Assembly: GCA_964019415.1 (NCBI GenBank)
Contig: OZ025889.1
Coordinates: 1,936,501 to 2,000,500, forward strand
Direction: 5' to 3'
DNA length: 64,000 bases
Source: Ianthella basta
Lineage: Eukaryota; Porifera; Demospongiae; Verongiida; Ianthellidae
The notes beneath the pieces were generated by a model, which worked only from the letters and a program-made list of their open reading frames with translations, had not been told where the DNA came from and did not search any database. This document shows positions 2,331-61,788 of this stretch, in pieces. Numbering within the stretch: position 1 is the stretch's first letter; every line of letters begins with the position of its first letter. The position numbers and the translations under genes are program-made.

Positions 2331-3928
2331 GCGAAAAGACTGCTCATGTTCCTGTGTGCCTGGGAAAACCATGTTATGGCCAGCCTGCAGGGAACCAAAG
2401 GAGTAATGGCTGAAAGCAGTCAGCTAGGCTTAACTATAGGGATGGCCTACAGCAACAAATTACGTGTTGTAGAGCATTGTATTAAAACTAATGTTAAAGG
2501 CTTCTCCTTATCTGGAGAAAGCATGCAATTATGTGCTACTCACTTTGTAAAGCGTTACACAGACAGCAGAGATACAGTAACAGCTAGTGATTACCACTAC
2601 ACACTCGATGGTGGTGCACTTTGTACACAAGAGACAACACAACTAGCTTCCCAGACTTACTGTCCTTAATTCACCACACCGTGGATGTAAAGTGGATGCA
2701 TATATTTGCAAAACATTACAAGGTGTCCAGTTGACAATCCCACTCCTGATACACAGCTCATGCAGGGTATAGGGTGGTTCCATGATGGGCTGATGTTGAT
2801 AACGACATAGCATAATTATGATAACAACTCTTGGCCTGCAAGTACTAAATTTAAATTAAATATAATGAAACAGACATTGAGTTGATGTATGAAGTGCGTG
2901 CTTATAATATATATCTGGCCATGGTCTGTGCACATGCAATCAGCATGAAGCATACAGAGGAGATAGAGGATTCAGAAACCGGTTTAAAGAGTTGTCTTCT
3001 ACATTGTTAAACATAAATTTCACTGTAAGTCAAGAGTCAAGGACAGGCAAGCAAGTAAAGTCTGCTGCATAGTTGGCATTGAGCCAGGACGCACATTATA
3101 CACTCTAATGTGGAGTTTCAGCCACCTGAGCCAGCTAGACACAGTGGTGATAATTCACATTCCCTTGCCCTTTATACTAGCAATGGAAAAAATGCAATAC
3201 AGCAACTGAAGGCCATGCCGTTGAAGCCAGTGTGGAATGATGGCAAGGTTCCACTAATCTCTCGTAAATGTGCATGTATCACTAAGAGCGGTAAATTGCA
3301 TAATAACTACAATCAAGTGACTATATTACCACATGTGCATGTGCATGTGTTTGGTGCTGCTTATACATGTACTGAACATGTAACATTGCATTGAGAGAGG
3401 TGAAGACTTCACAGAGTACCTCCAAATCTTTAAAACTCTTCTGATAGACAATAATGATTGTGGTGTACCCTGAAGCATGTATAAGGGGCACACATGCCCC
3501 AACTGTAGTATATATGCTGTAAGGAAAGAACAAATTCTGTTGGCTGTCAATAATTAAGGTGTGCTAGTATCTGCCATGAGCATCAGAACATCAGTACCAT
3601 CCTAACTGGGAAAGCTGCGGCTCTCTACCCTGCAAATTGTCCACTGCCATTCTTAAGGACCATATGCATGCACACATGTTACCTGTGCTGTTCCAGCCCA
3701 CCTCACAAGGTCTTTGTATAGAAACTTTGTAGTGTCCAAATATGGCTGCACCTCGTCCTCAAACTACAGCATGAGAGAATAGAACAGAGCATAACAAATG
3801 TGGTAGGGCTCGTGGCTCCTGTCTTCCATACAGTTTGAACTGGCCAATTAGTCACATGACATGCACATACATAGCTGACATACTCTACACCTACATACTC
3901 TAGACACCATTACAATACCTACTGCAAT

Positions 3929-5565: not shown

Positions 5566-6865
5566 CATGCATACAGCACTCTTAATTGGCGTTCAGCTAT
5601 ATTATGCAGACTATTAAACCCACTGTTTAATGTACAACACATGGACTTATGCAAAGTCAAATGCATGTGGCAAGGTTTTCAACCCTGTTGTGAAGCTGGT
5701 ACTGGAGAACCAACCTTTTTCAAATGCATGTATATGCACAGTGTACTATATATAGGCCCCACAAGCTATGTCACCATACAGTATTTTATACAATTTATGA
5801 TGTTAACAGTCTTCATCATCTAATGCATATGGCCAGCAAGCAGTTGCTTCCCATTGTGCATGATAAAATTGAGTTTAATGTTATACAAACAATAGTGACC
5901 CCAGGACCCAACTTAGGTCCTGTTTTCTACTATGCGACTTTATGGATGCTCTGCGGGTGATTGATACAATATATTATGAAAGTTCAAAGGCCATGGAACA
6001 CTTGGAGTAGACTCTACACCTATCATGTGATGGACATCGTTGTATGTAGTGACATAAAGCAGCAATACTATAATAATTATACATGCAAGCAGTCTGCCTA
6101 TATCATAGTAGAACCACAGTGACTTCTTAATACCATGTATAATGGCTATAGTTAGCCAAGCCCCTGTGAGATGTTGGCGGTTTCAAAGACAACAGGTGCA
6201 CATTACAGAACACATTATGCATGTCCCATTGACTGCCTTGGCTATAACCAACCACAAGAGGTAGCTAGCTAGTTGTGCAGGAACTGCTAGCTATAGTATA
6301 ATTATACAGAAAAGCATCATTTATAATGTTATGCAAAAAAGGTAGAAAAGTGAATTCTGGAAATGCTGTGAGTAATTGCTAATGTGGCATGTGCAAATTC
6401 AAACCTGTGTATGAGCTGCAGCAGGAGATCTATCACAATCATCATAATTATATAGAACGTTCGAACCCTGCTGCAAATTCACTCTCATGCACATTGCCCA
6501 AGCCAGGTATATACATAGGAAGAGCCATAGCCAACTGCAGCTTTTATCTTAAATATAAACATTTTGCAATAAATAGTAGAATAAGTTGCATGATAATAAA
6601 TTTAGCTTATTTCTGCTGGTCCAGAAAAATACGTTCACTCATAATTATACTCAAAAACATAGAAAAGTTCAGGGTGAGCACACTACAGAATGTTCTAACT
6701 AGCCCTGCGACTAAAGTCCAAACACTATTTGCTACGTAATCACTCCACAAGTACCTATAAGCCTACCTCTCGTAAGATAAACAGGAACTACACCCGGCCT
6801 AAGAGTACCAGCCTAGAGTAGACAGAAGGTTAGTAAATCATTTCAAGGTTTCCATAAATTGGCTC
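5566..6865. other. Intergenic; second copy of the XRCC2 upstream region
   Basis: No gene is seen. About 5668-5720 is a tail fragment of the hammerhead-bearing repeat. About 5935-6340 resembles 35760-36120, the region just upstream of intact XRCC2 (shared ATGATGGACATC, then GTGACATAAAGCAG versus GTGACATGAAGCAG). The duplicated block therefore seems to have been rearranged, since upstream sequence now lies downstream of the pseudogene. The convergent 3' ends of the XRCC2 pseudogene and gene B meet here. Confidence 0.5.
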
Positions 6866-7315
6866 CTATTTTACAACCGCATAGACATTATCTGTCACCC
6901 CATCATCATAGTCATCATCATCATCATTCCCCTTGGCTGGTTGTACTTCACCATCTTGAGATGTACTGATGGCCAATTTTGTCACATTGTAAACTGGATT
7001 AGGGGCTAGCTGGAATCCACCATAATCTTCAGGAGTTGAGTCAGAACCACGATTTTCATCGAGGCGTTGCTTTCGACAAACTGCACAATATCAATGATAC
7101 ATGGAGTCATAAGCAATTTAAGCAGGTGAAAGGTTAGCCCTTATTTCTGCTCCACTATGCACATTTCATGCAGCGTGCAGTCATTGTTGTCTCCCCTATC
7201 ATATCTCTGTATGACTTACATGGGGCTCTCAGTTTCATAACAATTCCCACCAAGACACAGAGTACAAGACTAACGATGATGACTGAAATAGTGGCTCCAC
7301 TGATAGCAGCCACAC
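6866..7315 (-). other. Gene B TM and cytoplasmic exons
   Basis: Exon 7315-7220 encodes [20 protein letters not shown] followed by [12 protein letters not shown] (the TM helix). Exon 7080-6866 encodes [12 protein letters not shown], then [32 protein letters not shown] and TDNVYAVVK with stop TAG at 6866-6868. The Asp run is coded by an ATC/GAT-type triplet repeat at about 6902-6928. NPVY and GFQL are shared with gene A; the acidic run is not. No C-terminal PDZ-binding motif is evident. Confidence 0.8.
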
Positions 7316-10300
7316 CTGAACCCAAGATGAAAGAAATACAATTTTGCCATCAAACCCTAGACCATGAATAAAATTATGAGAACAGGTGTATGAACATTGA
7401 CCAATAAATTTTAAATAAAGCACATATATTCATTAAGACGAGTAAGCAAATAAAAATTATGCACCTCATATGCAAGTTAACTCACTCTCAAGTGCCCCCG
7501 GGGTAGGTTCAAAATCTACATAAATACAACAAGAATGACATAGAAAATATTACGTGCAAAGTGCAACAGGCAGAAACTGAATAAATCAAAGTACAATAAT
7601 AATTGTAAGTCAAGTTTCCTTGGGCAGCCAAAGCAACAAGTACACCCAACACTCCCACTGAACACCAGTTGGACCTTTCCATGAACTACTGACCACATAA
7701 TATGCATATACTATTATGGGTGCCTGAAGTAAGTATCATGTATACTAGTGAATGCAAAGCATTGTAGGGCGAGCCTGAGGAAGTACCATGCAGTGGTTGT
7801 TTCACTGATTCATGCACTGATTTAACAGTAAACAGAATGATGGTCTTCTGTTGCCCGGTGCTGTCTCTTCCATGCATACGTGCTTCTACATCCTAGGTCA
7901 ACTTGACGGTCTTGTTGTTCCTTCTGTGCTGTCCTCTTGGTTGTTATAATTCTGGTTCGTGTTTTAACCTGAGGATTAATTCTCATGCCAGGACCTTTCT
8001 CACTCTCTCCTCCTGCACAGGCGTTCCTCTCTGTCGCTAGTCGAGTCCGACAGTCTACAGTCAGTAAAATTGCCCGGGGTGCAATCCATAGCTGTAGCAT
8101 GCCATGCCCAATGATCATAGGTAGGGTTGAGTGTCCATGCTAATGACAGTATACAGGACATTGTATTGACACTCTCCATTGTGTGTGTGTGTGTGCTGGC
8201 CCCAGTGCAGGTATAATAATATGCATGATAGCGCAACCACAATGCTTATGAGATGCAAAATGGTTGGTATAATACTCATAGTGCGCGTTGCAGCCTCTGA
8301 CCAAAATATTACGCCAAAACTTTCCCCCGTGGCCCAAACGGATGTGCGACATATACAGACAGAGCCACGTTACTCCTCGTAAGGGAAGGGGCCTCACTCA
8401 GGCTCACCCAAATATAACTTTGTTCCACAGATACACATCTTGTATGTGACTGTAATTTTACAGTTTTGGCAGATTATCATGATCCAAGTAATAGTGCTGA
8501 AAGGAGTCTAGGTAGGTTCTTACAAGTCTGAGACGCCTGTCTAAGGCAACGTTGTTACTCCATGAAAGCCTGTCTTCCACTGCTGAAATAACAGAGTTCA
8601 ACCTATGTACAGTGCTTCTTTAATGGATGGGACTTGCTTAATTTGAACTATCTGTAGATTACATAATCCATGACTGTATAAGTGGTTCAACAAGCAGCTT
8701 TGGGATTGAGCATGGAGCATGGTGGTGCTTTGTACCCCAGTGTAAAGTGGTCTAATTCACCAGAGGCAATGATCAATGTCATCTAATAAAGATTACTAAA
8801 CAGGCAAAGGTGTGCCTGGAGATGGAGCTACTCAGCTGGTTCAGTCCTGTTGGCCACAGCTACCCTCTACTTTAGAACTCCTCATCAAGCTTACGGAATC
8901 ATGGCTAGCACAGACAAAGACTAGTTGTGAGGTGTGTAAAACAATGCCAGGGAATTAGTGGAATGCTGAGGATCTTGACTTACCTACACAGGTATCATTT
9001 ACAACTTCCAACATGAATCCTGCTTCACAAGAACATTTGTATCCTCCAGGAGTGTTGGTACAGATCTGGTCACATCCACTGTTGTCAGTGCTATTACACT
9101 CATTAATATCTATGCAAGTACAAGGATACAAAGTATAGTAAATATGGCAGAATGTTACTTCGAGATGGTTCCCATAATTTGCACACCTGTTGTACACACA
9201 TGCATCAAGGAATCCATGTACGCAATATGCATGTGTAAGGTGACATTAAATTTCAATTGCAATGAGTAGTGCGGGAATACCACTAAACTATATACTTGCA
9301 GGTCCATCTCCAATTTGCCCCTTCATGCACATATAAAATTAGTATATGCTATATTTGATAGAGATCAGCAGCAGCATTGTGGAATGCAATTCCAACGTAC
9401 TTGCACTGAGTTCACCTGGTTACTTGCTGAGGGTGTATTCCAAGTACACCATATGACCCTTTAGCCAACATACAGCTTTGTCATTTTAGTAAGTAGTCAT
9501 GTTTGACATCTCCTATCATTGCCCAATGCTCATGGATGCTTGGCAACATTGCTAACTGGTAAACACGACACCAATATCATCAAACAGTTCCTCCTTACAA
9601 TAGCCTACCAGTTTGTATGCCATTCACAGTGGGTATATTTCCATTCTCACGGCAGATATACGGTGACTACGTATAAGTCAAAAGCCTTGATTTGTAGCTG
9701 ATGATGTCCCACGCAATCCATACATTCTTAGACAAAATAGACACTTAGGCTTGAGTTTGACCAGACCCATTTCTCCACAATTGCACTTAGTCTATTATAC
9801 CATTATACATAGTCACATAGTCTATTATACCAGAACACAAGTAATGTAATGTGTTGGTCAGGGGAACCTGGACACAAGTCCAGGTTCCCCTGACCAACAC
9901 GTTACAAATGTTATTAATACTAAAACATTATAAAAAGTTATAAAAACAAAAAGCAATACACTCATATAATCTAAGTACATACAATACAGCATGCATATTG
10001 TCAGCATTGTCCTCACCATCACATGCATGTCCATCCTCATTGAGTGTATAGCCAGCATCACAGGAGCAGTTGTATCCTGGTTCAGTATTGGTGCAGTTGT
10101 GGTGACATCCACTGATATCTTCAGCACATTCATCAATGTCTATGGAAAGAGCAACTCACAAAACTGCATAGAGACTATATACCACCAACGAATGAAGCAC
10201 TGTCTGAAAGCATAACAGGTATACATGCACAGTGACACTATGGATCTGATCTGAAGCATGGGTCTATCTTAAACATCATTGTAGATAAATCTTATTATAG

Positions 10301-13300
10301 ATATGTACCTGTTTCACAGTTTTGTCCACTCCACCCTGTGGAGCAGTTACAAGTCTCTGGTAGCACACACTCTCCACCATTCAGACACCCTCCAGTGCAG
10401 ATCGCTGAAAGGAATGATACCATGTAGACAGACAACTCAAAAGCAATCCAGCAGGCACATCCCCAGTAAGTTGAAATTAAACAGGACTAGATAAGAGTTC
10501 GTTACAATATCATACAGCTGCCACTCTTTTGCTCCCTGAATAAGCCCTTCCTCGCACCAGCATTGGATGAAGACATATAATGGATTACCATGCATATGGC
10601 CAGAAATTCTGGCAGGGTCCTGAAACTATTATGGTGTTTGGCAGAGTTAATATTGGCAGTTGTGCATAGTCATAATGATATTCATAGCAAAAATGGCTAA
10701 TCCGGGACGGGCGCAGCTAAGTTTCAAATGCATTATGATGATGAGAGATGCGTCTGATGAGTACGCAAGCTGCTGCTCAGTCATTATGGTGTATTTTTGG
10801 TCTAATCCTGTGTCCCAACAATGAATTCTTCAACGTATGAACCATTGTGGTAGAGCTGCTGACGCTTGCCTGCTGCCTGTGAATTCACACACATTCATAC
10901 CGCTCCGAGGCAGAGACAGAGAATAGGCTGCCAAAATCTTCCTGAGTAAGTAATCAAAAGTGATGTCAATGTTAGTTTTCATAGTGACCGCATATACTAC
11001 GCCGTTCGGATTGTCTTCCTCACTCTGATAAGCTGAGACAGCTCTTCTCCCACCTCAGGTGTCTGAAACTGTTTGGAAACATGGTATCCTCCTGCACAGT
11101 TGTTGACTGTGAACTCCAACGATTAACCTATATGACTGGTGTATCAAGCTAAAAACCAGGAAACTATGATTACACCATATATAACGAGGCACATTTTGGC
11201 AAAAGAAATATTGGTGGAAGAAATATTGACGGATTGCTCTCATAGCTGCCAATCCTCCTAAATATATTCCCACCAAAATTTCCAACCATACATTATTTGT
11301 AAATTCAGCTAGCCAATGAAACCTGTGTGCATAGTCAAGTTTTAGTCCTATTGCATCATTCTATATGGAGATATAGCATTCTCTGCGCATATAAGTCAAC
11401 ACTGTAGAAATTTGTCACATCAATTTAAGCAAAAATGTCAATAGTTGCCAACATAACATCTCTTCATTTATGCACTAACATTTACATGCATACATGAGAA
11501 ACAAGCAGGTAAAAGTTTGCATAGCAGCATAAACAGTACATCCACCCATTGTATGTGCATGCATGTAGCCATCATGCACCTCTAGCTCTAGATCTACTGC
11601 ATATGCTCAGGCATTCTCCACAGAATAATTCATTAGTCTTCAACTAATTCAACTAGTAATAATCTTATGCTCACCATGGCACTTTCCAGGTTCCCTGAGT
11701 TCATATCCAGGATCACACTGACATATGCGGCTGCCAGGTGTGTTGGTGCAGTTATGGTCACAGCCTCCATTGTTATCAGCACATTCATCAATGTCTGTAG
11801 TTTAGGAGGAGGCCATGGAGAACCAATTCAAAATAACTGTGAATAGAGATCCGGCTGCTCCATGTACACAACAAGTATATACATCATCATAGAGTGCAGT
11901 ACTCTGTATCTATGGATCTACATCTGCGTGTATATAAGCACATGCACTGTACTACATACTTGCATATAATAATACATGAACTGTATGTATGATTCTTTCC
12001 TGCTCACCATCACAAGTGAGTGCAGCATCATTCTGTGTGAACCCTGATCTGCAGTTGCAGTGTCTTCTATCTTGGTGCAAGTCAGCATACTGTCTGCAGT
12101 AACAGCTGAAGGAGCCTGGGCTGTTGCTGCAGTGGTCTGAACAGCCATCGTTGTTTGAGGCGCACTCATTCACATCTACGAGTAGAAAGGTACATGCTCC
12201 ACTATACATGTGACAGTATGCATTAAGAAAACATCGCAACAATGCGTACATCTTTACATTTATGAAGGTGGCTGAAATTAAAGCACAGTGATAACAGTCT
12301 ATTATGTTGGCAGAAATATAATAATAATTATGGTCTACCAGCCAATTGCAACTTTCATTATACTGCATACATATCACAAATAATGTAGTGACGTGCCCAC
12401 ATCAATTATTTATGGATCTGATCTAAGCTGATACTGCTAACGCACATAGTATATAATTCTGTTCTTCTAATAATCGCATATGTAACAGTGGAATTGGTTT
12501 ATGTACTATTCTATATTTAGACGATTATTACATCATCTTATGTAGTGTTATGTATATATTCACATGGTAGGGTAAAAAGAGCGGTTTTCATGGTGATTGA
12601 TTGAATCATTGCTCCCTGAAAACGAGTTCATTGTTGATTGCATGCTCTCGTAGCCTTGCTGTTCAACATTGGTGCTAGCGACGTTACATCTGGAGGTCCT
12701 GCTGAGACACCGGAGGGGGAAATGGCCCAATCACAACGTATGTGGTTAGAGGGCCTGTGAGTTAATACTCCTCGCGACAAGACGTAGCTACGTACGTAGC
12801 TACCCTGGCACTTCGACCAGGACACTTGATTGCATGCTCTCATAGCCTTGCAATTGCTGTTCAACATTGGTGCTAGCGACGTTACACATACATTCTAAAT
12901 GTATATTATAATAGTAGAGTTGCTATCTTAGTATTATAGTGGGGGATATTTGTGTATGAGGGTATATATAGACGGTGAGATGGTGGAATGTTTTGATGTG
13001 AGGCAGGGAGTGAGGCAGGGTGCATGGCCACATGTTGCTGTGGGTATTTAACATCTATTTATGGTGGTCAGGGAAACACAAACCAATTAACAGGGAGGAG
13101 TGACCTTGAATACATGTAAGGTTCAGGTATTGCTCGTGTATAAGCTGAACAAGTCAGTTTTCCATTGAAACTATGTCCAGTCAAATGGAAGACTTGGAAT
13201 AAATGTAGGCGAGGAAGGGAATTAAATTGGCCACAGCCTGGCTGCTGAAACCCCATGATGGGGTATAAGTTGTCCCAGGTTCAATGGAGGCTGGTGCCAA

Positions 13301-16300
13301 TTTTCCCTTAATTCCTTGCCTACATCTCTTCCGGGTTGTGTCTTCCGTTAGACTTGACATTGTAAGTATTGCTGTTCACTGATTACAGAGTTTAGTTGCA
13401 GAAGTTGAGGTGGACCTGCGGACTGTTGGCCACAGCTACCCTCTATTTCAGAACTCCTCATCAAGCTTACGGAATGGCTAGCACAGACAAAGACTAGTTG
13501 TGAGGTGCGTAAAACAGTGCCAGGGAATTAGTGGAAGGCTGAGGATCTTGACTTACCTACACAGGTATCATTTACAACTTCCAACATGAATCCTGCTTCA
13601 CAAGAACATTTGTATCCTCCAGGAGTGTTGGTACAGATCTGGTCACATCCACCGTTGTCAGTGCTATTACACTCATTAATATCTATGCAAGTACAAGGAT
13701 ACATAGTAAATATGGCAGAATGTTACTTAGTGATGGTTCCCATAATTTGCACACCTGTTGTACACACATACATCAAGGAACCCATGTACACAATATGCAT
13801 GTGTAAGGTGATATTAAAATTCAATTGCAATGAGTAGTGCAGGAATACCACTAAACTATATACTTGCAGGTCCATCTCCAATTTGCCCCTTCATACACAT
13901 ATAAAATTAGTACAATGTCATGTTATATTTGATAGAGATATCAGCATGGTGTAATGCAGCTCCAACGTACTTGCACTGAGTTCAACTAGTTACTTGCTGA
14001 GAGTGTATTCCAGTATACCATATGGCCCTTTAGCCAACATACAGCTCTGTCATTTTAGTAAGTAGTCATGTTTGACATCTCCTATCATTGCCTGATGCTC
14101 ATTGATGCTTGGCAACATTGCTAACTGGTAAACGCAACACCACTATCATTGATCAGTTCCTCCTTACAATAGCATACCAGTTTGTATGCCATATGCCAAG
14201 GTGGGTATATTTCTATTCTCACGGCAGATATACGATGCCTATGTAAGTTAATGGCCTCGATTTATGGCTGATGATGTCCCACGCAATCTATACATTCTTA
14301 GCCAAAACAGAAACTTAGGCCCCAGTTTAACCGGACCTATTTCTCCACAATTGCACTATATACCAGCAGAGAATAGGGACTGGACACAAGTCTAGGTTCC
14401 TCTGACCAACACATCATAAATGTTATAAATACTTCTAACATAAAGCAATACATATAATCTAAGCACATACAATACAGCATATTGCCAGCATTGTCCTCAC
14501 CATCACATGCATGTCCATCCCCATTGAGTGTATAGCCAGCATCACAGAAGCAGAAGTATCCTGGTTCAGTATTGGTGCAGTTCTGATGACATCCACTGAT
14601 ATCTTCAGCACATTCATCAATGTCTATAGAAAGAGCAACTCACAAAACTGCATAGAGACTATATACCACCAACGAATGAAGCACTGTCTGAAAGCATAAC
14701 AGGTATACATGCACAGTGACACTATGGATCTGATCTGAAGCATGGGTCTATCTTAAACATCATTGTAGATAAATCTTATTATAGAGATGTACCTGTTTCA
14801 CAGTTTTGTCCACTCCACCCTGTGGAGCAGATACAAGTCTCTGGTAGCACACACTCTCCACCATTCAGACACCCTCCAGTGCAGATTGCTGAAAGGAATG
14901 GTACCATGCAGACAGACAACTCAAAAGCAATCCAGCTGGCACATCCCCAGTAAGTTGAAATTAAACTACAGGACTAGATAAGAGTTCGTTACAATATCAT
15001 ACAGCTGCCACTCTTTTGCTCCCTGAATAAGCCCTTCCTCGCACCAGCATTGGATGAATACATATAATGGATTACCATGGATATGGCCAGAAATTCTGGC
15101 GGGGTCCTGAAACTATTACGGCGTTTGGCGGAGTTTATCTTGCCGGTTTTGCAAGCATTATGCCATAATGATATTCATAGCAAAAATGGCTGATCCAGGA
15201 CGGGCGCAGCTAAGTTTCAAATGCATTATGATGATGAGAGATGTGTCTGATGAGTACACAAGCTGCGGTTCAATCATTCTGGAGTATTTTCGGTTTAATC
15301 CTGTGTCCCAACAATGAATTCTTCAACGTACGAACCATTGTGGTAGAGCTGCTGACGCTTGCCTGCTGCCTGTGAATTGGCGCACAGTAGTACAACTCCG
15401 AGGCAGAGACAGAGAATAGGCTGCCGAAATCTTCCTGAGTAAGTAACCGAAAGTGATATCAATGTTAGTTTTCATAGTGACCACATACACTAAGCCATTC
15501 GGATTGTCTTCCTCCCTCTGACAAGCTGAGACAGCTCTTCTCCCACCTCAGGTGTCTGAAACCGTTTGGAAACATGGCATCCTCGTGCACAGTTGTTGAT
15601 TGTAAACTCCAACGATTAGCCTATAGGACTGGTGTATCAAGCTACAAACCAGGAAACTATGATTACACCATATATAACGAGGCTAATTTTGGTGGAAGAA
15701 ATATTGGTGGATTGCTCTCATAGCTGCCAATCCTCCAAATTATATTCCCACCAAAATTTCCGACCATACATTATTTGTAAATTCAGCTAGCTATATAGCC
15801 AGTGAAACCTATGTGCATAGTCAAGTTTTAGTCCTATTGCATCATTCTATATGTATCAGTTATAACACCTCCTTGAGGGATGTCGCTGATTTATAAGCAC
15901 GAGGCCCGAGGGCGCGAAGCGCCCGAGTGGGGAGTGCATATAAATCAGTGACATCCCGAAAAGGAGGTGTTATAAGTGATTTATTTGCCGAACAAAGGGA
16001 AGCGTGGGTGAATATTAATTGGTTTCTTGCCAAATAAGGAAAGCATTAGGGGAGCGCGGGCGAATCTAATGCATTTTTATTCATTACGAGAGCTAGCTAG
16101 CGAGGAGCCAAGCGAGTCAGGCAGAAACGTCGGTACGCTGCACCTCCGGAAACCTATTCCTCTACGGAGGAGACGTCTTGCCGCGCTCCTGCAACGTGAT
16201 CGAAGGCGCCAACAAGACTTGAATCGTGGTCGGCGGAAGGTGCGCCCGACGGCATTGCAGGCGGAGGGAGCCGAGCTGGCTCACAGGGATCTGACGATGG

Positions 16301-19300
16301 GACAGCACGATGGATCGGTGATCAGCTGCGTTGGAACTGACCGTGATCTGAGACTCTATGTTCGTTCGGTAGCTAGCTAGCTGGCTACGTACTTAAGATG
16401 TCTTTCTGACAGGGTCCTCTCGTGCGGAAGAATCGGCCACCATCGACGCACAAATTTTGTCGAATAGACAGCTGTAGTACGGTAGAACGGCAGTAATCAG
16501 TTTGCTCAGTGGTTCCAATAGGATGAAGCTTAAGCTTTTTGCACCCTTTTCCATGACTGAAACTACATATACAGTGGCACCATAGATATTCAAAACCCAA
16601 CCATATTAATGGTTGGGTAGTGTAGAGCTACTGTATATCTCATTGAACTGTTCTTGTATTTTGATCTGAATGCAAGCACTTGCATGTGAAGTGTTGTTGC
16701 TATTGATTGAATGACACTGAACCCGATTAGATATTTTCGTGAACTCGATTAGATATTCTTGCTCTCCAATAAGATATAATCGCTCTCCTATAAGATATAA
16801 TCGCTCTCCAATAAGATGTAATCGCTGTCTGATAACAAATTGTCACCTTTCACTGCAAGTAGCACTTTTATAGTCACTCAATAAACATAGCAACCACCTA
16901 GCAACGGCAAATAAGGAGATATAGCATTCTCTGCGCATATAAGTCAACACTGTAGAGATTTGTCACATCAAAGCAAAATGTCAATAGTTGCCAACATAAT
17001 ATCTCCTCATTTATGCACTAACATTTATATACATACATGAGAAACAAGCAGGTAAAATTTTGCATAGCAACATAAACAGTACATCCACCCATTGTATGTG
17101 CATGCATGTAACCATCATGCACCTCTAGCTCTACTGCATATGCTCAGGCATTCTCCACAGAATAATTCATTAGTCTTCAACTGATTCAACTAGTAATAAT
17201 CTTATGCTCACCATGGCACTTTCCAGGTTCCCTGAGTTCATATCCAGGATCACACTGACATATGCGGCTGCCAGGGGTGTTGGTGCAGTTATGGTCACAG
17301 CCTCCATTGTTATCAGCGCACTCATCAATGTCTGTAGTTTAGGAGGAGGCCATGGAGAACCAATTCAAAATAACTGTGAATAAAGATCCGGTTGCTCCAT
17401 GTACACAACAAGTATATACATACATCATAGAGTGCAGTACTCTGTATCTATGCATCTACATCTGCATGTATATAAGCACATGCACTGTACTACGTACTTG
17501 CATATAATAATACATGAACTGTATGTATGTATCTTTCCAGCTTACCATCACAAGTGAGTGCAGCATCATTCTGTATGAAGCCTGGTCTGCAGTTGCAGCG
17601 TCTTCTATCTTGGTGCAAGTCAGCATACTGTCTGCAGTAACAGCTGAAGGAGCCTGGGCTGTTGCTGCAGTGGTCTGAACAGCCACCATTGTTAGAGGCG
17701 CACTCATTCACATCTGCAAGTAGACAGGTACATGCTCCACTATACATGTGACAGTATGCATTAAGAAAAATATTGCAACAATGCGTACATCTTGACATTT
17801 ATGAAGGTGGCAGAAATTAAAGCACAGTGATAACAGTCTATTATGTTCACAGAAATATAATAATAATTATGGTCTACCAGCCAATTGCAACTGTCCCTAT
17901 ACTGCCTACACATCACAAATAACGTAGTGATATGCACACATCAATTACTTATGGATCTGATCTAAGCTGATACTGCTAACCCACATAGTATGTAATTCTG
18001 TTCTTCTAATAATTGCATATGTAACAGTGGAACTAGAACTGTTTACGTACTATTCTATATTTAGACAATTATTACATCATCTTATGTAGTGTTATGTATG
18101 TACTCAGGCGGTAGGGTAAAAGTTGCTATCTCACCTGATGATGGATGTCTGCCAATGGCACGGGATTAAGAAGCTCAAAACAACATTATACCACCCACAG
18201 TGTGATGGGTTGGTAGAAAGATTCAACAGAACTCTAAAGAGTATGCTCAGGAAGCATGCGGCCGACTTCGGAGTCCAGTGGGATCGGTACCTCCCTGGGG
18301 TACTGTGGGCGTACCGCAATACGCCCCATGACTCGGCTGGTGAAAAGCCCTCCTTTCTCTTGTATGGAGTCGATTGCCGCTATCCAACGGAAGCTGCTCT
18401 GTTACCCCCGACTCCAATCAAGCCAGTTGCAGTGGAAGACTACCGAGAAGAGCTTGTGCTGATGCTTGGACAAGCCCGTAAACAGGCTGTTGTTGCCATC
18501 CAGAAGGCACAGAAGCGGTACAAGAAGAGTTATGATCAGTGTGCGAAGGATCCCACCTTGCAAGTTGGGGATTGGGTCCTAGTGAAATTTCCTCAGGAGG
18601 AATCTGGCCGCCTAAGAAAGCTGTCTAGGCCCTGGCATGGACCGTACCGCATCACATCTGTGGATTTACCAGATGTCACAGTGACCAAGGTTTATCATCC
18701 CGAAGATGGCTCACTGCAAGTCCATTTAGCACGTGTTCAGCCATGCCCACACACTTTCCCTCGTGGACTCTATTGGTACTGAGGAAGTCAGTATTCCCTG
18801 GAAAGGTACCTCAGTGGGTTCAATCTCTGTTGGACGACTCAGATGAAGCTGCCCCTCGATATAACCTACGCAAGCGTCAACCACCTAGAGTCCGTTAAGC
18901 TCAGGTCGAGCTCTCTCAAAGGGGGAGGTGATGTAACAGTGGAACTAGAACTGTTTATGTACTATTCTATATTTAGACGATTATTACATCATCTTATGTA
19001 GTGTTATGTATGTACTCACATGGTAGGGTAAAAAGAGCGGTTTTCATGGTCATTGATCGAATCATTGCTCCCTGAAAGCGAGTTCATTGTTGATTGCATG
19101 CTCTCGTAGCCTTGCAATTGCTGTTCGACATTGGTGCTAGCAACGTTACACATACATTCTAAATGTATATTATAATAGTAGAGTTGCTATCTTAGTATTA
19201 TAGTGGGGGATATTTGTGTATGAGGGTATATATAGATGATGAGATGATTGTTTTGATGTAAGGCAGGGAGTGAGGCAGGGTGCATGGCCACATGTTGCTG

Positions 19301-22300
19301 TGGGTATTTAACATCTATTTATGGTGGTCAGGGAAACACAAACTAATTAACAGGGAGGAGTGGCCTTGAATACATGTAAGGTTCAGGTATTGCTCGTGTA
19401 TAAGCTGAACAAGTCAGTTTTCCATTGAAACTATATATGTCCAGTCAAATAGAAGACTTGGAATAAATGTAGGCAAGGAAGGGAATTAAATTGACCACAT
19501 CCTGGCTGGCTTGAGCTGCTGAAACCCCACGATAGGGTATAAGTTGTCCAAGGTTCAATGCAGGCTGGTGCCAATTTTCCCTTAATTCCTTGCCTACATC
19601 TCTTCCGAGTTGTGTCTTCCATTAGACTTGACATTGTAAGTATTGCTGTTCAGTGATTACAGCTAGAGTTTAGTTGCAGAAATTGAGGCAGACCTCAAAC
19701 ACAGCATCACAGCACTCCAAGAAGCAGCAAGAGACCACAAGTCAAGAATCAATTAACTGGGGAAAGACAACCACCATGGTGGTTCCATAATGGTATAAGT
19801 GGTTCAACAAGCAGCTTTGGGATTGAGCATGGAGAATGGTGGTGCTTTGTAAACCAGTGTAACGTGGTCTAATTTACCAGAGGCAATGATCAATGTCATC
19901 TAATAAAGATTACTAAACAGGCAAAGGTGTGCCCGGAGAGGGAGCTTCTCAGCTGGTTCAGTCCTGTTGGCCACAGCTACCCTCTACTTTAGAACTCCTC
20001 ATCAAGCTTAGGGAATGGCTAGCACAGACAAAGACTAGTTGTGAGGTGTGTAAAACAGTGCCAGGGAATTAGTGGAATGCTGAGGATCTTGACTTACCTA
20101 CACAGGTATTATTTACAACTTCCAACATGAATCCTGCTTCACAAGAACATTTGTATCCTCCAGGAGTGTTGGTACAGATCTGGTCACATCCACCGTTGTC
20201 AGTGCCATTACACTCATTAGTATCTATGCAAGTACAAAGATACAAAGTATAGTAAATATGGCAGAATGTTACTTCAAGATTGTTCCCATAATTTGCACAC
20301 CTGTTATACGCACATGCATCAAGGAGCCCATGTACACAATATGCATGTGTAAGGTGATATTAAAATTCAATTGCAATGAGTAGTGCGGGAATACCACTAA
20401 ACTATATACTTGCAGGTCCATCTCCAATTTGCCCCTTCATGCACATATAAAATTAAATTAGTACATGTTATATTTGATAGAGACGTCAGAATGGTGGAAT
20501 GCAGCTCCAACACACTTGCTCTGAGTTCACCTAGTTACTTGCTGAGGGTGTATTCCAGTACACCATATGGCCCTTTAGCCAACATACACCTCTGTCATTT
20601 TAGTAAGTAGTCAAGTTTGACATCTCCTATCATTGCCCGATGCTCATTGTTGCTTGGCAACATTGCTATCTGGTAAACGCAACACCACTATCATTGATCA
20701 GTTCCTCCTTACAATAGCATACCTGTTTGTATGCCATTCAAGGTGGGTATATTTCTATTCTCACGGCAGATATACGGAGAATATGTAAGTTAATGACCTT
20801 GATTTATAGCTGATGATGTCCCACGCAATCTATACATTCTTAGCCAAAACAGAAACTTAGGCCCCAGTTTAACCGGACCTATTTCTCCACAATTGCACTA
20901 TATACCAGCAGAGAATAGGGGCTGGACACAAGTCCAGGTTCCTCTGACCGACACATCATAAATGTTATAAATACGTCTAACATAAAGCAATACATGTAAT
21001 CTAAGCACATACAATACAGGATTATGTCAGCATTGCCCTCACCATCACATGCATGTTCATCCTCATTGAGTGTATAGCCAGCATCACAGGAGCAGAAGTA
21101 TCCTGGTACAGTATTGGTGCAGTTCTGATGACATCCACTGATATCTTCAGCACATTCATCAATGTCTATAGAAAGAGCAACTCACAAAGCTGCATAGAGA
21201 CTATATACCACCAACGAATGAAGCACTGTCTGAAAGCATAACAGGTATGCATGCACAGTGACACTATGGATGTAGATCTGATCTGAAGCATAGGTCTATC
21301 TTAAACATCATTGTAGATAAATCGTATTATAGATATGTACCTGTTTCACAGTTTTGCCCGGTCCATCCTGTGGAGCAGTTACAAGTCTCTGGTAGCACAC
21401 ACTCTCCACCATTCAGACACCCTCCAGTGCAGATCGCTGAAAGGAATGGTACCATGCAGACAGACAACTCAAAAGCAATCCAGCTGGCACATCCCCAGTA
21501 AGTTGAAACTACAGGACTAGATAAGAGTTCGTTACAATATCATACGGCTGCCACTCTTTTGCTCCCTGAATAAGCCCTTCCTCGCACCAGCATTGGATGA
21601 AGACATATAATGGATTACCATGTATATGGCCAGAAATTGTGGCAGGGTCCTGAAACTATTATGGTATTTGGCAGAGTTTATATTGGCAGTTGTGCAAGCA
21701 TTATGCCATAATGATATTCATAGCAAAAGATGGCTAATCCAGGACGGGCGCAGCTAAGTTGCAAATGCATTATGATGATGAGAGATGTGTCTGATGAGTA
21801 CACAAGCTGCTGCTCAATCATTCTGGAGTATTTTCGGTTTAATCCTGTGTCCCAACAATGAATTCTTCAACGTATGAGCCATTGTGGTAGAGCTGCTGAC
21901 GCTTGCCTGCTGCCTGTGAATTTGCACACATTCATACCGCTCCGAGGCAGAGACAGAGAATAGGCTGCCAAAATCTTCCTGAGTAAGTAACCAAAAGTGA
22001 TGTCAATGTTAGTTTTCACAGTGACCACATACACTACGCCGTTCGGATTGTGTTCCTCACTCTGATAAGCTGAGACAGCTCTTCTCCCACCTCAGGTGTC
22101 TGAAACCGTTTGGAAAGATGGTATTCTCCTGCACAGTTGTTGACTGTGAACTCCAACGATTAGCCTATAGGACTGGTGTATCAAGCTACAAACCAGGAAA
22201 CTATGATATATAGCGAGGCAAATTTATTCATACCGCTCCGAGGCAGAGACAGAGAATAGGCTGCCAAAATCTTCCTGAGTAAGTAACCAAAAGTGATGTC

Positions 22301-25300
22301 AATGTTAGTTTTCACAGTGACCACATACACTACGCCGTTCGGATTGTGTTCCTCACTCTGATAAGCGGAGACAGCTCTTCTCCCACCTCAGGTGTCTGAA
22401 ACCGTTTGGATAGATGGTATCCTCGTGCACAGTTGTTGACTGTGAACTCCAACGATTAGCCTATAGGACTGGTGTATCAAGCTACAAACCAGGAAACTAT
22501 GATATATAACGAGGCAAATTTTGGTGGAAGAAATATTGGTGGAAGAAATATTGGCAGATTGCTCTCATAGCTGCCAATCCTCCAAAATATATTCCCATGC
22601 ACCAAAATTTCCGACCATACATTATTTGTAAATTCAGCTAGCCAATGAAACCTGTGTGCATAGTCAAGTTTTAGCCATATTGCATCATTCTATATGGAGA
22701 TCTAGCATTCTCTGCGCATATAAGTCAACACTGTAGAAATTTGTCACATCAATTTAAGCAAAAAAAGTCAATAGTTGCCAACATAACATCTCTTCATTTA
22801 TGCACTAACATTTACATGCATACATGAGAAACAAGTAGGTAAATTTTGCATAGCAACATAAACAGTACATCCACCCATTGTATGTGCATGCATGTAGCCA
22901 TCATGCACCTCTAGCTCTAGATCTACTGCATATGCTCAGGCATTCTCCACAGAATAATTCATTAGTCTTCAACTGATTCAACTAGTAATAATCTTATGCT
23001 CACCATGGCACTTTCCAGGTTCCCTGAGTTCATATCCAGGATCACACTGGCATATGTGGCTGCCAGGTGTGTTGGTGCAGTTATGGTCACAGCCTCCATT
23101 GTTATCAGCGCACTCATCAATGTCTGTAGTTTAGGAGGAGGCCATGGAGAACCATTTCAAAATAACTGTGAATAGAGATCCGGTTGCTCCATGTACACAA
23201 CAAGTATATACATACATCATAGAGTGCAGTACTCTGTATCTATGCATCTACATCTGCGTGTATATAAGCACATGCACTGTACTACGTACTTGCATATAAT
23301 AATACATGAACTGTATGTATGATTCTTTCCTGCTTACCATCACAAGTGAGTGCAGCATCATTCTGTGTGAAGCCTGGTCTGCAGTTGCAGTGTCTTCTAT
23401 CTTGGTGCAAATCAGCATACTGTCTGCAGTAACAGCTGAAGGAGCCTGGGCTGTTGCTGCAGTAGTCAAAACAGCCTCCATTGTTTGAGGCGCACTCATT
23501 CACATCTACAAGTAGAAAGGTACATGCTCCACTATACATGTGACAGTATGCATTAAGAAAAATATCGTAACAATGGGTACATCTTGACATTTATGAAGGT
23601 GGTAGAAATCACAGTGATAACATTCTATTATGTTGGCGGAAATATAATAATTATGGGAATTGCAAATGTCATTATACTGCCTACACATCACAAATAATGT
23701 AGTGACGTGCCCACATCAATTACTTATGGATCTGATCTAAGCTGATACTGCTAACCCATATAGTATATAATTCTGTTCTTCTAACTAGAAATAATATAAA
23801 ATTCTACAAAATTGTAAGGATGTAGGGATGGCATAAAAGGACAGAAACAATTAAAAGCTGTTACACAGTGGAGCATTAACCATGGTCCCTACATGCAAGA
23901 ATGTCACACCTTATAGTCCTAAATCCTTGAATGTAGGGATGATGGTTAATGCTCCACTGTGTAACCAGTTCGTTTCTCGGCTCTGGTTCATAGCCGGATT
24001 GTTGCTTTACCCTGTTTCTTGACAAAACAAGTAAGCTTGGCAACCTGTACGTCGTAAGCTGTTGCGTATTTTAATAAACAGCTGCAGTTCTCTGCTATAA
24101 AATTCCTATAAAATTCCCAGTGCGAACGATGCGCCTTAGTTAGAGCCCAGCTAGACAAAATAGAAGTCGTGGTGCGAAAGTACAGCTGGGGTGTCTACGA
24201 GGTGTAGAGCTTGCAAAAGATGCCCGTTTCCATGGTAACAAGATCTATATGTGTATGTAAAGTGATATGTAATTCTACATACAAAATATATCTATAATGA
24301 TGTTTATTAGCTGACAGCTACACCATAAACTGCTCTTTTCATACCAACTAGTAAACATAGTAATAATTATTTTCCACCACAAAGATGGAAACATATCAAA
24401 TGCAGCAAACACTATAATTATATTGGTGAACTATGGCTCAGGTACTATAGCAATGAGTCATTTGCCAGCTTTCTAATAATAACTGTTATCTCAGTTACTT
24501 TAGACAGCCACTCATGCAAGGAAGTATATACTATAATTAGAAATACAAAATTACCAATGGCCAAAAGCATTCCGTCTTGCCAACATGTTTGCCATACCTA
24601 TTTCACATGTTTCTGATGTCCAGCCACTGTTGCAGGAACAACTTCTTTGCTCCTTTGTATCTGAATAATCAACAATACAAGTGCCATGGCCACACCCATC
24701 ATCTTTACACAGATTCCGATTTCTACAACGACCATACTCTGTTGTACAGAAAACTATGCAGAAAAGAAGGAGATAAATACAGTGCAAGTTACAATATACA
24801 CCACTAAATAAATCTAAAGTATAAGAATAAATAAGTAGGAGATATAACTGCAGCTCATACTATGCAACAGGTGCTATACCGTGCTTAAATTTTGGAAGAC
24901 AAAATTTTCACAAATGTCCAATTTTCATTTTGTTCGTGGTTTTTTCTTTTGCTGATGCTAGGTACCATACCGTATTTATGTAATCATATACGTTATTTAC
25001 CCATATTAATACAGAAGAAAAAGCTGGACATGCGGATTCCCTTTTGCAGGTTCTTCTTCTTCATTTGTCGAATATATATTTCACACTACTGTGCACTGCA
25101 GTTCTGCTCCATAGACTTTACCAAGGAAGAATGCGCAACCTTCTCCAGCTAGCCCTTGAGCACATTGCATTTCCAGCCTAACAGTATACACTTTAGAAGC
25201 TACATCATACAAACAAAACAATATACTGGACCCTTATTACTGGGGAACCAACATACATACCTGATAACCAATGAAGCAACATCCATATTTAATCTACATC

Positions 25301-28300
25301 GCATGCAAAGGCGGCAATGGGCATTGTTGCATGGTTCAGCGTCAATTATACAGTTATGCAATGCCTTGTTCAAAATGTTCACAGATTACATTATTTACTG
25401 ATGGCTTCTCAAACTGCAAAATCTGCAAAGGTTTTATCCTATGAAAATTTAAGCCCATACAGTATGTAAGAATATTACTACACTGGATCTCTGTTCATTT
25501 GTGTGCTTTTGCTATTATACTATATGTGCTCCTGGGACCACTATAGAATTTCCCTGCATGAAGCAATTGAAATGCGTGGTGTCAGGTGTAGAAGAATCAG
25601 TGGGATGCTTTAAGCTATTTTGTTGGCTTTCTGCCCATCAATATCTTGACTGAAATACTTTAGCCATGTACAATGAGACACCATTTTCCCTATGGCAAAC
25701 TGTTCTTCCAGTCACTCTCTAAGAATGCTACATGCATAACATCATGGTGGTGTCTATGCTCATATACGTATATTGCACCACAACATTGAGTTGCTCCATG
25801 GCTGCAACCAGATCATAATAGTATACATAATGGAATTATATTTCAAAGTGAATAATGCACCTTCTATGGCATGGGTATATAGTAGCTATTATGTCACATT
25901 CACCAACACACTGTTATGTTGTACAGAATAATTCATGCTGCCAGTCACAATCATGCAGTCACCACTATGACATGCACTATATATGAATTTAGCATCATGT
26001 CCCATGTGCCAACAGCTGCACCAGCATGTACTCTGCTTGCTGTAGCCCATGCTATATACTGTATGACTGTATAATGACATCTGCTAGAGTATGCCAGACT
26101 ACATACAGTGCACAGCTATATATATCAATGTATGAGATGCCAGCATCCAACAAATTAATCTGGTAGCAGCACACCAGTATGCAACATGCTTGCATCAAGA
26201 GCCTGGAGCAGGACAGTCTGCTAAAGGCAGGCTATATAGTGTAATTGTAACAGTTACATAGCCTGTCCAGCACGTAAACAAATCACTAAATTAATGGTGG
26301 CACTTACTTTGGTTACATGTTGATCCCTGCCACCCGGGCTTGCACTGACTACAATCTGTACCTCCGTAATTTCCTTCACAGGTAAGTGTGACTCGCATAG
26401 TAAGCTGACCAGTAGTAAAATATCTGGAGCTTCGATCATCTGGAAGTCCTCTGAAATGAAATCTAAGTGACCCAAGATTGTCATCGTACCTTAGATCTAC
26501 ATCCCATACTTCCACATATAGCACCACACCAGCAGATCCCTGCATTATGGTACATAAATAGACAGGGCACAACAACAACAGAAAGAACATCTTCAACAAA
26601 TGTCCCAACAGAGCCATACAATTGAAACGTCTATTTGCAGCTATAAGGCTTTCTCTTCCAACGTCTAACTTCCAGCTGAAACATCATATTGCATACAAAC
26701 AAAGTACTGGAAGATAACAGTGTCACCTTTTTCAGGCCATGAACTGACATAATTATTACCATTTGCATGCAAGATGCAGGGACCATGCATGATTAATGCT
26801 TCACTGTGTAACAGCCTTTACTTGTTTCTGTATTATGTCATTCCTATATCCTTACTATGTTTAATTTGTAGAAGATATTAATTTCATTACTTCTATAATA
26901 ATTTTACAGTAGAATGTACCTGTCTAACATGGTCACTGTATAGTACAGTCACCTCCTTATATATAAGACTGCCTCCCTGGCCCCAAATAGCATTAAAGCA
27001 TTGCAATCTACCTCTGTAGAGCAGGCACCTCCCTATATAGGTCAGTTAGAACTGGCCCACATGGGTGGCTGTCTTAGACAGTTTCCACTCTATCACTACA
27101 AGCAAGTGTGAACCATTAGCAGTATGATAAATGAAATATGCTGTAGAACAAATTGAAAAATATGAAATATATTTAGATATCCACTAACTTGGCTAGAAGG
27201 CATAAATTGGAACCTGCATCTGTAACGCACCTACCTCTCTATAAATGTCAATTATAACAGGCCCACAGGTGGCTGTACCAAGATGATATCAAGATGCATA
27301 CATGTGAAGTGTGCTTGTCAAGATGACAGCCATAGCTAGCTATTATGTGCCATTTTCTTTAATGTAACTCTGCCTTGTAATAATTGCAGCAGCTACCTTG
27401 TGCAGTACCAGGATGGCCAGCCTCTAGATGCTGTACAACCTTGTTTTGCACCAGCTTATCACAACCTTGTTTACAAGGTGGTATAATTATACAGTCACAT
27501 GAAAACGTGTCAAAAGCACAGTTGAAATAAGGTGGTAACAAGGCAGCAACGATGAAATAAGGCATGTGGTATCAAGGCGGCAGGCAACCTTCATAACAAC
27601 CTTGTAGAAAGCATGATATTTTAGTACTGGTACACAACAATTACGTACAGGGTAGTCCATATTCCAAGGTTGACGATTAATTTGATTGAATCTTGCTTCA
27701 GTCACTTCATTTCCTTCGTGATATCCGCGTGAGCCAGAAATGTCACGATTCTTGCAGTTAATGTTGGTGTTAGCACAGGCGTAAAAACGAAATTCACAGT
27801 ATCCAGCACAGAATACATCACAGCATGTGTGTCTGTGATTGGAATAGCGATGGTATCTGACACTCAATGTTCCTCGCTTCACTGCCAGCACCTGCATGTA
27901 GCAGAATGGGGGTACAGAACAATTACTGTCTGTTGAATACAATAGCCAAAATACATGGAGATTGTTGAGGTAGTGTGCTAAGTACTGAAATGGATAGCTA
28001 AACCTCCAAAGCTAAACACTGTGTTGTTCCAATCAGAGAGTAATGCTCAGTATGTAGAGATGACGATAGTTCTCTATGTAGTGGAAAAGACTACACTACA
28101 GAATTCCACGTTATACTATTGGCCAATTAGCAAACAAGAAAGTTCCCAGTATATGTAGTTCACAACAGCAGTGTTCCTTCATTGTTGTTAGCTAGTAGCT
28201 GTATCTCACAAGGAAGCCATCATTATACATACACTTTTTCCCACCTCCTTGGCTCATTATATAATACTAGTGTATGTACCACTGCATAAAGCACCAGTGT

Positions 28301-42844: not shown

Positions 42845-59154
<16,310 letters not shown>

Positions 59155-60708: not shown

Positions 60709-61715
60709 ATGCATGCGTGCATGTGTGCATGTGTGTTCAGTGTGTGGGGGGTGCACAAGTGTGTGCGTGTGTGCACGCATGCTTGGTATACAATAAGTGA
60801 TGTGAAGATATGCAAGCATACACTAACAGTGAATCTATAATTCACATAGCCACAAGATAACTAATATTGCATAAGGTCATATATATCACACAAAGTGGAT
60901 GACTGCTTGAGTGGCTTGATACTCATAGTCTCGCGTAGCCAGACCGCCATCTTTGCTCAGACCCCGCCTTCTCAAAAGGTGGAGTCTGAGCAAAGATGGC
61001 GGTCTGGCTATGCAAGACTATGATACTCATACGAGATACAACTGAATGGATTAAAACTGATGTACTGCTACTACTAATAACAATAATATAACACTAACTG
61101 TACAGACAGGCATGCATGGTCACTAGATAACGAACACAGGCACTACTTAATATTAATACTAACCCCAAACAGGCCGGTGACTGCACCCTTGTGGTCTCTG
61201 AACTGTTGTGTACACACCCCCTTGGCAACGTCCCATACCTGGACACACCCAGCAGCATCCCCAGTGACTAGGAACTCCCCCGACGACACCAAACAATGGA
61301 CATGTGCTCCCAAGTTCAAAACCCGGGTAGGATCCACAACTTTGTAGCCGTCATCAGGTGCTCGCCACGTCCTATAGTTCTTCTTACACTCATCCAGCTT
61401 ATTTGCAATGTCCCACAATTCAATATCTCCTCCACATGCCACAGCCAGTACCCCAGTCTGCAAAGGCAACCACTGCATTCTGCGAGGAGCATTGACAGCA
61501 AAGAGTGGTGGCAGTCTGCGTGCACGAGCGATAGGAAATTCATCCAGGTCATCAAAGAAAGGGTCGTCCAATAGAAGGATTGGTGCCCTTCCACGGTTGA
61601 GAGAAATGTGTGGTAGAGGGTTCTCTTGCTCTGCAAAATCCTTCTTCATCAAATCAACAATCCAAATCTGAAACACAAGAAATTGCCACAGAATTCCAGG
61701 TGTGTGTGTGTGCGT

Positions 61716-61788
<73 letters not shown>

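Follow-up and report, generated by a model that had tools for sequence, protein, structure and literature searches.

A predicted EGF receptor gene of Ianthella basta with a triplicated five-exon cassette of mixed C-type and D-type exons

The mammalian EGF-TM7 receptor gene EMR2 (ADGRE2) is described in PMC2077338 (citing Kwakkenbos 2006) as a chimera. Its epidermal growth factor (EGF) region is nearly identical to that of CD97 and its transmembrane (TM) region is closest to that of EMR3. There, and more briefly in PMC2720389, the chimera is said to be upheld by conversion with adjacent genes in opposite orientation. EMR2/CD97/EMR3 is the closest precedent for gene B, which was studied here in a window of 64,000 nucleotides (the whole stretch analysed; C22:1936501-2000500) on contig OZ025889.1 (C22) of the sponge Ianthella basta. 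Gene B represents a known type of patchwork gene in a well-resolved form. Exons a-d of its EGF cassette are of the type found in its neighbour, gene C, while exon e, the TM exon and the cytoplasmic tail match the type seen in a third group, the D genes. As in EMR2, the EGF exons match an oppositely oriented neighbour and the membrane part another gene. The two cases differ in that the EGF region of EMR2 is near-identical to CD97, whereas genes B and C share 79-96% identity over exons a-d and have introns that can hardly be aligned. Moreover, EMR2 is an EGF-TM7 receptor, while gene B is predicted to encode a single-pass protein with a tandemly triplicated block.

Internal duplication of several domains at once is known from other genes (Bjorklund 2006, PMC1553488), and EGF and IG are named there as the domains most often duplicated singly. 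Gene B resembles this kind of domain-repeat expansion as a multi-domain duplication, but its unit consists of five EGF exons. MEGF10, Draper and CED-1 combine an EGF-type ectodomain, one TM segment and an NPxY motif in the tail, according to PMC8092387. Gene B likewise has an EGF-type ectodomain, one predicted TM segment and an NPxY-type tail; it differs by the lack of an EMI domain in the pieces tested and by the calcium-binding-like start of four of the five cassette EGFs. Compared to the Notch ligands Delta and Jagged (five Deltas in Amphimedon, as stated in PMC3482393), exon 1 of gene B is distantly similar to the end of C2 and the start of DSL and is followed by EGF repeats and a TM segment, but gene B is without a Pfam DSL domain and the middle of DSL is missing in the alignment. 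The dumpy gene was set aside as a precedent, as the concerted repeats described in PMC2930355 are not its EGF exons. The open-licence literature searched yielded no description of this locus or of a triplicated cassette of this kind.

Gene B was modelled on the minus strand (6866-26617) and gene C, its neighbour in opposite orientation, on the plus strand from approx. 42.8 to 59.2 kb with both ends guessed from open frames. Comparison of the window DNA with itself revealed three tracts of similar sequence (8667-12577, 13423-18121, 19784-23807). In each of them, five exons were readable on the minus strand with acceptor and donor, namely a (168 bp), b (120 bp), c (96 bp), d (123 bp) and e (126 bp), in an exon search that imposed phase 1 on both exon ends. 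In copies B2 and B3, an alternative exon d of 153 bp outscored the 123-bp form (18.5 vs 17.0); 123 bp were retained because B1, the C genes as well as D1 and D3 have this length. When the 15 cassette exons were joined with the signal-peptide, EGF-like, TM and tail exons, one predicted frame of 892 amino acids without a stop was obtained. The exons of gene B are as follows, in the direction of transcription.

26308..26617, minus strand: exon 1 with predicted signal peptide, C2-like stretch and short EGF/DSL-like end (open frame with GTAAGT donor; weak similarity to C2/DSL-type open reading frames (ORFs) of the same genome)
24598..24753, minus strand: EGF-like exon ahead of the cassettes, phase 1-1 (Pfam EGF models below cut-off only)
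23338..23505, minus strand: exon a of copy B3 (exon search, as for all cassette exons)
23004..23123, minus strand: exon b of copy B3
21341..21436, minus strand: exon c of copy B3
21043..21165, minus strand: exon d of copy B3 (153-bp alternative scored higher)
20098..20223, minus strand: exon e of copy B3
17546..17713, minus strand: exon a of copy B2
17212..17331, minus strand: exon b of copy B2
14793..14888, minus strand: exon c of copy B2
14501..14623, minus strand: exon d of copy B2 (153-bp alternative scored higher)
13557..13682, minus strand: exon e of copy B2
12008..12175, minus strand: exon a of copy B1
11675..11794, minus strand: exon b of copy B1
10309..10404, minus strand: exon c of copy B1
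10017..10139, minus strand: exon d of copy B1
8984..9109, minus strand: exon e of copy B1
7220..7315, minus strand: TM exon of D type (BLASTP of overlapping stretches: 86% to D2, 70% to D1 and 64% to D3)
6866..7080, minus strand: cytoplasmic tail and stop, with an NPVY (NPxY-type) motif (D2 and D3 have NPSY in their tails)

The triplication in gene B is real. A block of exons was duplicated in tandem within the gene; its copies are arranged head-to-tail, are in frame and include the introns. This agrees with the initial annotation, which had placed five exons of these lengths three times in gene B and had suggested growth in steps of 211 amino acids; each cassette has 633 bp and thus 211 codons, and the units are 94-95% identical over 8667-23807. 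In detail, whole units were pairwise 93.98, 94.15 and 94.87% identical in 3488-3507 aligned columns, after a 1.06-kb repeat of copy 2 and one copy of a 296-bp duplication of copy 3 had been removed. The introns a-b (95.8-97.7%) and c-d (97.0-98.8%) were highly similar between the copies as well. The synonymous divergence (dS) between B copies was 0.06-0.10 and dN/dS was 0.34-0.41 (18 to 27 changes per pair), which is consistent with a retained coding function. Informative sites formed 151 runs compared to a mean of 189 after shuffling, and none of 10000 shuffles gave a number as low. This mosaic pattern suggests that the B copies exchanged short tracts after the triplication. Three further features distinguish or separate the copies.

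15850..16915, plus strand: dispersed repeat of approx. 1.06 kb, only in copy B2 (b-c intron), with 39 other places at 86-94% identity (40 candidates scored out of 743)
22226..22521, no strand assigned: tandem duplication of 296 bp that only copy B3 has, repeating 21930-22225
12480..13417, no strand assigned: repeat-rich spacer between B1 and B2, with a counterpart between B2 and B3

A counterpart of the spacer was also looked for above B3 and was not found; two other repeats are located there instead. The dispersed repeats of the spacer look like long terminal repeat (LTR) elements, as they occur in pairs approx. 5.5 kb apart elsewhere.

The relationships of the cassette were studied exon by exon in the genome (209 Mb, 96 contigs). 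With exon a of gene C as query, eight strong matches were obtained among 150 scored out of 433 candidates, and all of them are on C22. Three of these lie in gene B, one is gene C itself, and its four paralogues at 1.70-1.78 Mb have one each. The next matches covered exon a only partially with an identity of approx. 50%. All five C genes have the exon order p-a-b-c-d-e, with 123 bp for both b and e in each of them. In gene C, these exons are located as follows.

44407..44502, plus strand: EGF exon p, ahead of exon a (exon search, also for a-d)
45413..45580, plus strand: exon a, 168 bp
45779..45901, plus strand: exon b, 123 bp
46766..46861, plus strand: exon c, 96 bp
47109..47231, plus strand: exon d, 123 bp
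49798..49920, plus strand: fifth EGF exon (e), 123 bp, not closely related to exon e of gene B

Exons a and b of the B copies were 83-92% and 81-88% identical to the C genes on the nucleotide level. Exon c showed 79-96% identity to the C genes, 87-90% to D2 and 73-78% to D1 and D3. For exon d, the values were 93-96% to D2, 83-90% to the C genes and 59-62% to D1 and D3, while exon d of D1 and D3 was 50-57% identical to that of the C genes. Given the partial matches of approx. 50% that follow next in the genome, the kinship of B and C over exons a-d is beyond chance. Exon e behaved differently: it was 91-92% (91.3-92.1) identical to D2 and 74-78% to D1 and D3, but 63-66% (62.6-65.9) to the five C genes. 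The lengths differ between B and C in exon b (120 vs 123 bp) and exon e (126 vs 123 bp). Over exons a-d, dS was 0.33-0.50 between B and C and 0.29-0.48 among the C genes; between B and D2 it was 0.14-0.17 over c-d-e. For exon e, dS between B and C amounted to 1.6-2.9 in four pairs and was not computable in the fifth.

In the trees, exon e of D2 and of the B copies stood together (97/91, starred) and with the D group (89/94), separate from exon e of the C genes (99/99, starred). Exon d of B, of D2 and of the C genes fell into a single clade (99/100, starred). Eight clade hypotheses were subjected to approximately unbiased (AU) tests on these short exons of approx. 120 columns, yielding seven uncorrected p values, as one hypothesis needed none; a ninth, on the a-b tree, needed none either. 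For exon c, a D-family clade (p 0.003), a C-only clade (p 0.015) and a clade of B and D2 (p 0.003) were rejected. A clade of the B and C exons e was not rejected (p 0.133); hence, the conclusion on exon e is drawn from its identity values, length and dS together with the starred branch of B and D2, rather than from the AU test. By these measures, exon e groups with EGF genes other than gene C, an outcome that the initial annotation had named as refuting its proposal. Exons a-d are of the gene C type.

The D genes are located at 1.884-1.890 Mb (D1), 1.899-1.908 Mb (D2) and from 1.930 Mb to approx. 1.5 kb of the window (D3). D3, on the plus strand, enters the window at 1-1550 with the TM and tail stretches of its 3' end and lies tail-to-tail with gene B. 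All three carry exons c-d-e, with an exon e of 126 bp in D1 and D3 and of 129 bp in D2; the end of exon d in D2 was set at 123 bp to match B1, C, D1 and D3. No exon a was found in the D genes in the genome search and no exon b in the stretches read (for D3, from 1.5 kb above exon c). The p exons of D1, D2 and four of the five C genes are related (99/96, starred), and p of C3 groups apart. DNA shared by D2 and B runs from downstream of the gene, via the TM exon and exon e, to the intron above exon c, and is 76-82% identical; in gene B it covers 6569-7747 and 8677-11412 as well as the matching parts of the other copies. In the 5' halves, D1 and D2 share stretches with 74-79% identity (one of 51 bp with 86%), which reach down to D2 position 1903372; the collinearity of D2 with B, in place of D1, starts at 1903365. 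D2 therefore looks like a mosaic with a D1-like 5' half and a B-like 3' half that meet within the intron above exon c. This intron is also the place where B has exons a-b instead of a D-type exon p. In exon c, B sides with most C genes against D2 at six sites and with D2 against C at none; in exon d, the numbers are one and nine, respectively. Together with the AU results for exon c, this may hint at gene conversion as a further exon-sized exchange in exon c, though 96 bp provide little evidence and some of the sites may be private to D2.

The introns gave a different result for the two comparisons. In gapped blastn, the alignments between B and C ran across the introns from a to b and from c to d at 67-75% identity (74-75% for a-b). 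When the introns were compared alone with trimmed splice ends and scored against shuffled sequence, the a-b and c-d introns of B1 and the five C genes (10 comparisons) were near the shuffled level with z values between -0.2 and 2.4, and the two highest scores were equalled by 7 and 8 of 200 shuffles. The introns of B1 and D2, in contrast, are homologous (c-d 85% with z 33; d-e with z 145). Among the C genes, introns are largely scrambled, and z exceeded 5 only for C3-C5 and C4-C5 (a-b) and for C1-C2 (c-d). As the introns of the C genes are scrambled, too, an old exchange followed by intron turnover would be sufficient and an exon-limited mechanism is not required.

Gene B is probably a chimera, in which a C-type a-b-c-d run was joined to a D-type end of exon e, TM exon and tail and the composite block was then triplicated. 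Recombination in phase-1 introns could have linked the two parts, and the reading frame would survive since the exons are all phase 1-1. The composite a-e block would subsequently have been copied in tandem to three, probably via unequal exchange, with swaps of short tracts between the copies afterwards. D2 may be a product of the same modular history. Each cassette would form one EGF rod, so that the triplication may extend the ectodomain by 2 x 211 amino acids ahead of a short NPxY-type tail. The relative series of dS values of approx. 0.4, 0.15 and 0.08 may illustrate how a cell-surface receptor is assembled: by exon shuffling among families that are neighbours, a new combination of halves within an intron and then duplication of a block. 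Several points weigh against this history or parts of it. A D-family clade of exon d (p 0.156), a clade of the B and C exons d that leaves out D2 (p 0.474) and a C-only clade of exon b (p 0.394) all withstood the AU tests, as did the clade of the B and C exons e mentioned above. A stretch of D1 matches D2 1902741-1903249 at 66% and B at 65%, in an order that differs relative to exon p. The longest run in the mosaic test of the B copies (9719-9866) is close to indels. The joining of the gene B exons is a prediction from genomic sequence, and the exchange may have run from C to B or from B to C, as the a-b tree has the C genes as one side of a branch.

The initial annotation had proposed that the whole cassette a-e moved between the two genes as one unit and expanded in gene B. 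Both genes do have five consecutive EGF exons in the same order, readable as phase 1-1 (45413-49920 in gene C), and exons a-d are clearly related, so that EGF exons are indeed common to the neighbours; the blastn alignments across the a-b and c-d introns and the AU result for exon e are compatible with the proposal as well. However, they are not the same five exons: b and e differ in length, and exon e is D-type by identity with a dS of at least 1.6 vs 0.33-0.50 for a-d. Furthermore, the introns alone were not clearly common to B and C. Transfer of the whole cassette with introns was consequently rejected for exon e and is unsupported for the introns. It would be tenable only if exon e had moved, too, and had later been overwritten by D-type sequence, which makes it very unlikely. 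Descent of B, C and D without transfer from one ancestor with all exons, followed by loss of a-b and divergence of c-d in D1 and D3, is also unlikely. It would account for the like phase of all EGF exons and the related p exons, and the D-family clade of exon d stands with the AU test. Yet the identity of exon d in D1 and D3 to B (59-62%) and C (50-57%) contrasts with 83-90% between B and C, and would need very different rates within one gene; the D-family clade was rejected for exon c, and D2 turns from D1-like to B-like within a single intron.

The chimera could also have arisen in the reverse direction, if the C family had obtained exons a-d from an ancestor like gene B or D2. The position of the C genes in the a-b tree, where they make up one side of a branch, would fit, as would the distances between B and C, which are of the same size as those among the C genes. 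Nevertheless, exons a-d occur in five C genes, no exon a was found in the genome search beyond the C genes and B, and D1 and D3 have a divergent exon d. The a-d run therefore looks foreign in the D/B group, and the reverse direction is considered improbable. An assembly artefact as the source of the triplication is hardly credible. Similar head-to-tail copies are a classic trap for assemblies, but the copies differ by 5-6%, have private insertions and lie in one contig of 6.2 Mb. This difference looks far above the allelic level, since the gene C protein from a presumed second assembly differs from that of the window in 1 of 1225 residues.

A more far-reaching idea goes beyond the chimera: the C22 cluster might be an active exon-exchange system, with the intron above exon c as a hinge that re-pairs EGF heads (a-b or p) with a common c-d-e-TM tail, and with a number of gene B cassettes that varies between individuals. 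It is regarded as distinctly doubtful. If it were true, the reach and specificity of receptors could diversify in this way, for example in self/non-self or microbe recognition. On a practical level, the fifth EGF exon of another type demonstrates that matching exon order and phase are insufficient to infer a shared cassette.

Gene B is predicted to encode a single-pass EGF receptor. Exons a, b, d and e open with D-x-[ND]-E-C, as calcium-binding EGF domains do, and exon c does not. With Pfam, which was applied to exons a, b and c, FXa_inhibition was over the cut-off in exons a and b and EGF_CA in exon b, and EGF was found in exon c. The window contains domains of the types EGF, Ig, Sushi and Ephrin_rec_like, while DSL occurs elsewhere in the genome with five matches over the cut-off and with none in the window. 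The N-terminal part of gene B had no match to DSL (PF01414) up to E 1 and E 10, with HMMER filters that drop most weak hits. The label 'Delta-like' of the initial annotation is hence weak, and gene B was rejected as a member of the Notch ligand family for want of the DSL domain. Exon 1 gave nothing over the Pfam cut-off. It weakly matched an ORF of the same genome (E 2.7e-4), which itself reaches C2 only below the cut-off, and was 28-36% identical to C2/DSL-type ORFs. An AlphaFold model of exon 1 from a single sequence had a predicted local distance difference test (pLDDT) value of 54 with an unreliable fold, and no candidate relative of exon 1 was found in the protein collection. For EMI, no Pfam match was observed in the first two exons of gene B nor in N-terminal pieces near gene C and D2, whose models are incomplete. 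The NPxY-type tail motif is present as NPVY in B and as NPSY in D2 and D3; the tail of D1 was not recovered. The architecture and this one short motif would suit an engulfment or scavenger-type receptor.

The last part of exon 1 is distantly similar to the EGF domain of TYRP1. An EGF resembling this part was also seen in four ORFs of 548-603 amino acids elsewhere (L077, L079, L080 and L081), which are presumably tyrosinase-like, judging from their motif pattern.

The four paralogues of gene C form a tandem array approx. 25 kb apart at C22:1696001-1780519 (L009-L011, L013, L068-L071) on the opposite strand to gene C. Within this set of five C genes, exon e has diverged much less (dS 0-0.2) than exons a-d (0.29-0.48). 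The EGF-like module encoded by exon a contains eight cysteines instead of six and is 15 residues longer than that of exon d. This eight-cysteine form was also observed in seven ORFs on other contigs with 61-75% identity. In the protein collection, nine proteins were related to exon a; one was the window's own, and six of the eight others originated from contigs under 10 kb. At 52570-56283, gene C contains a single open frame of 1238 amino acids with Ig-type stretches. With this large exon as query, five paralogues on one contig of 4,745,187 bases, six more at 72-75% elsewhere and six weak matches were obtained; ten relatives had 72-88% identity and one was near-identical.

Outside of genes B and C, the window contains a tandem duplication of approx. 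780 bp at 37437-38982 with 89.7% identity between its copies. A minus-strand ORF at 61143-61835 showed WD40-type matches under the curated cut-offs.

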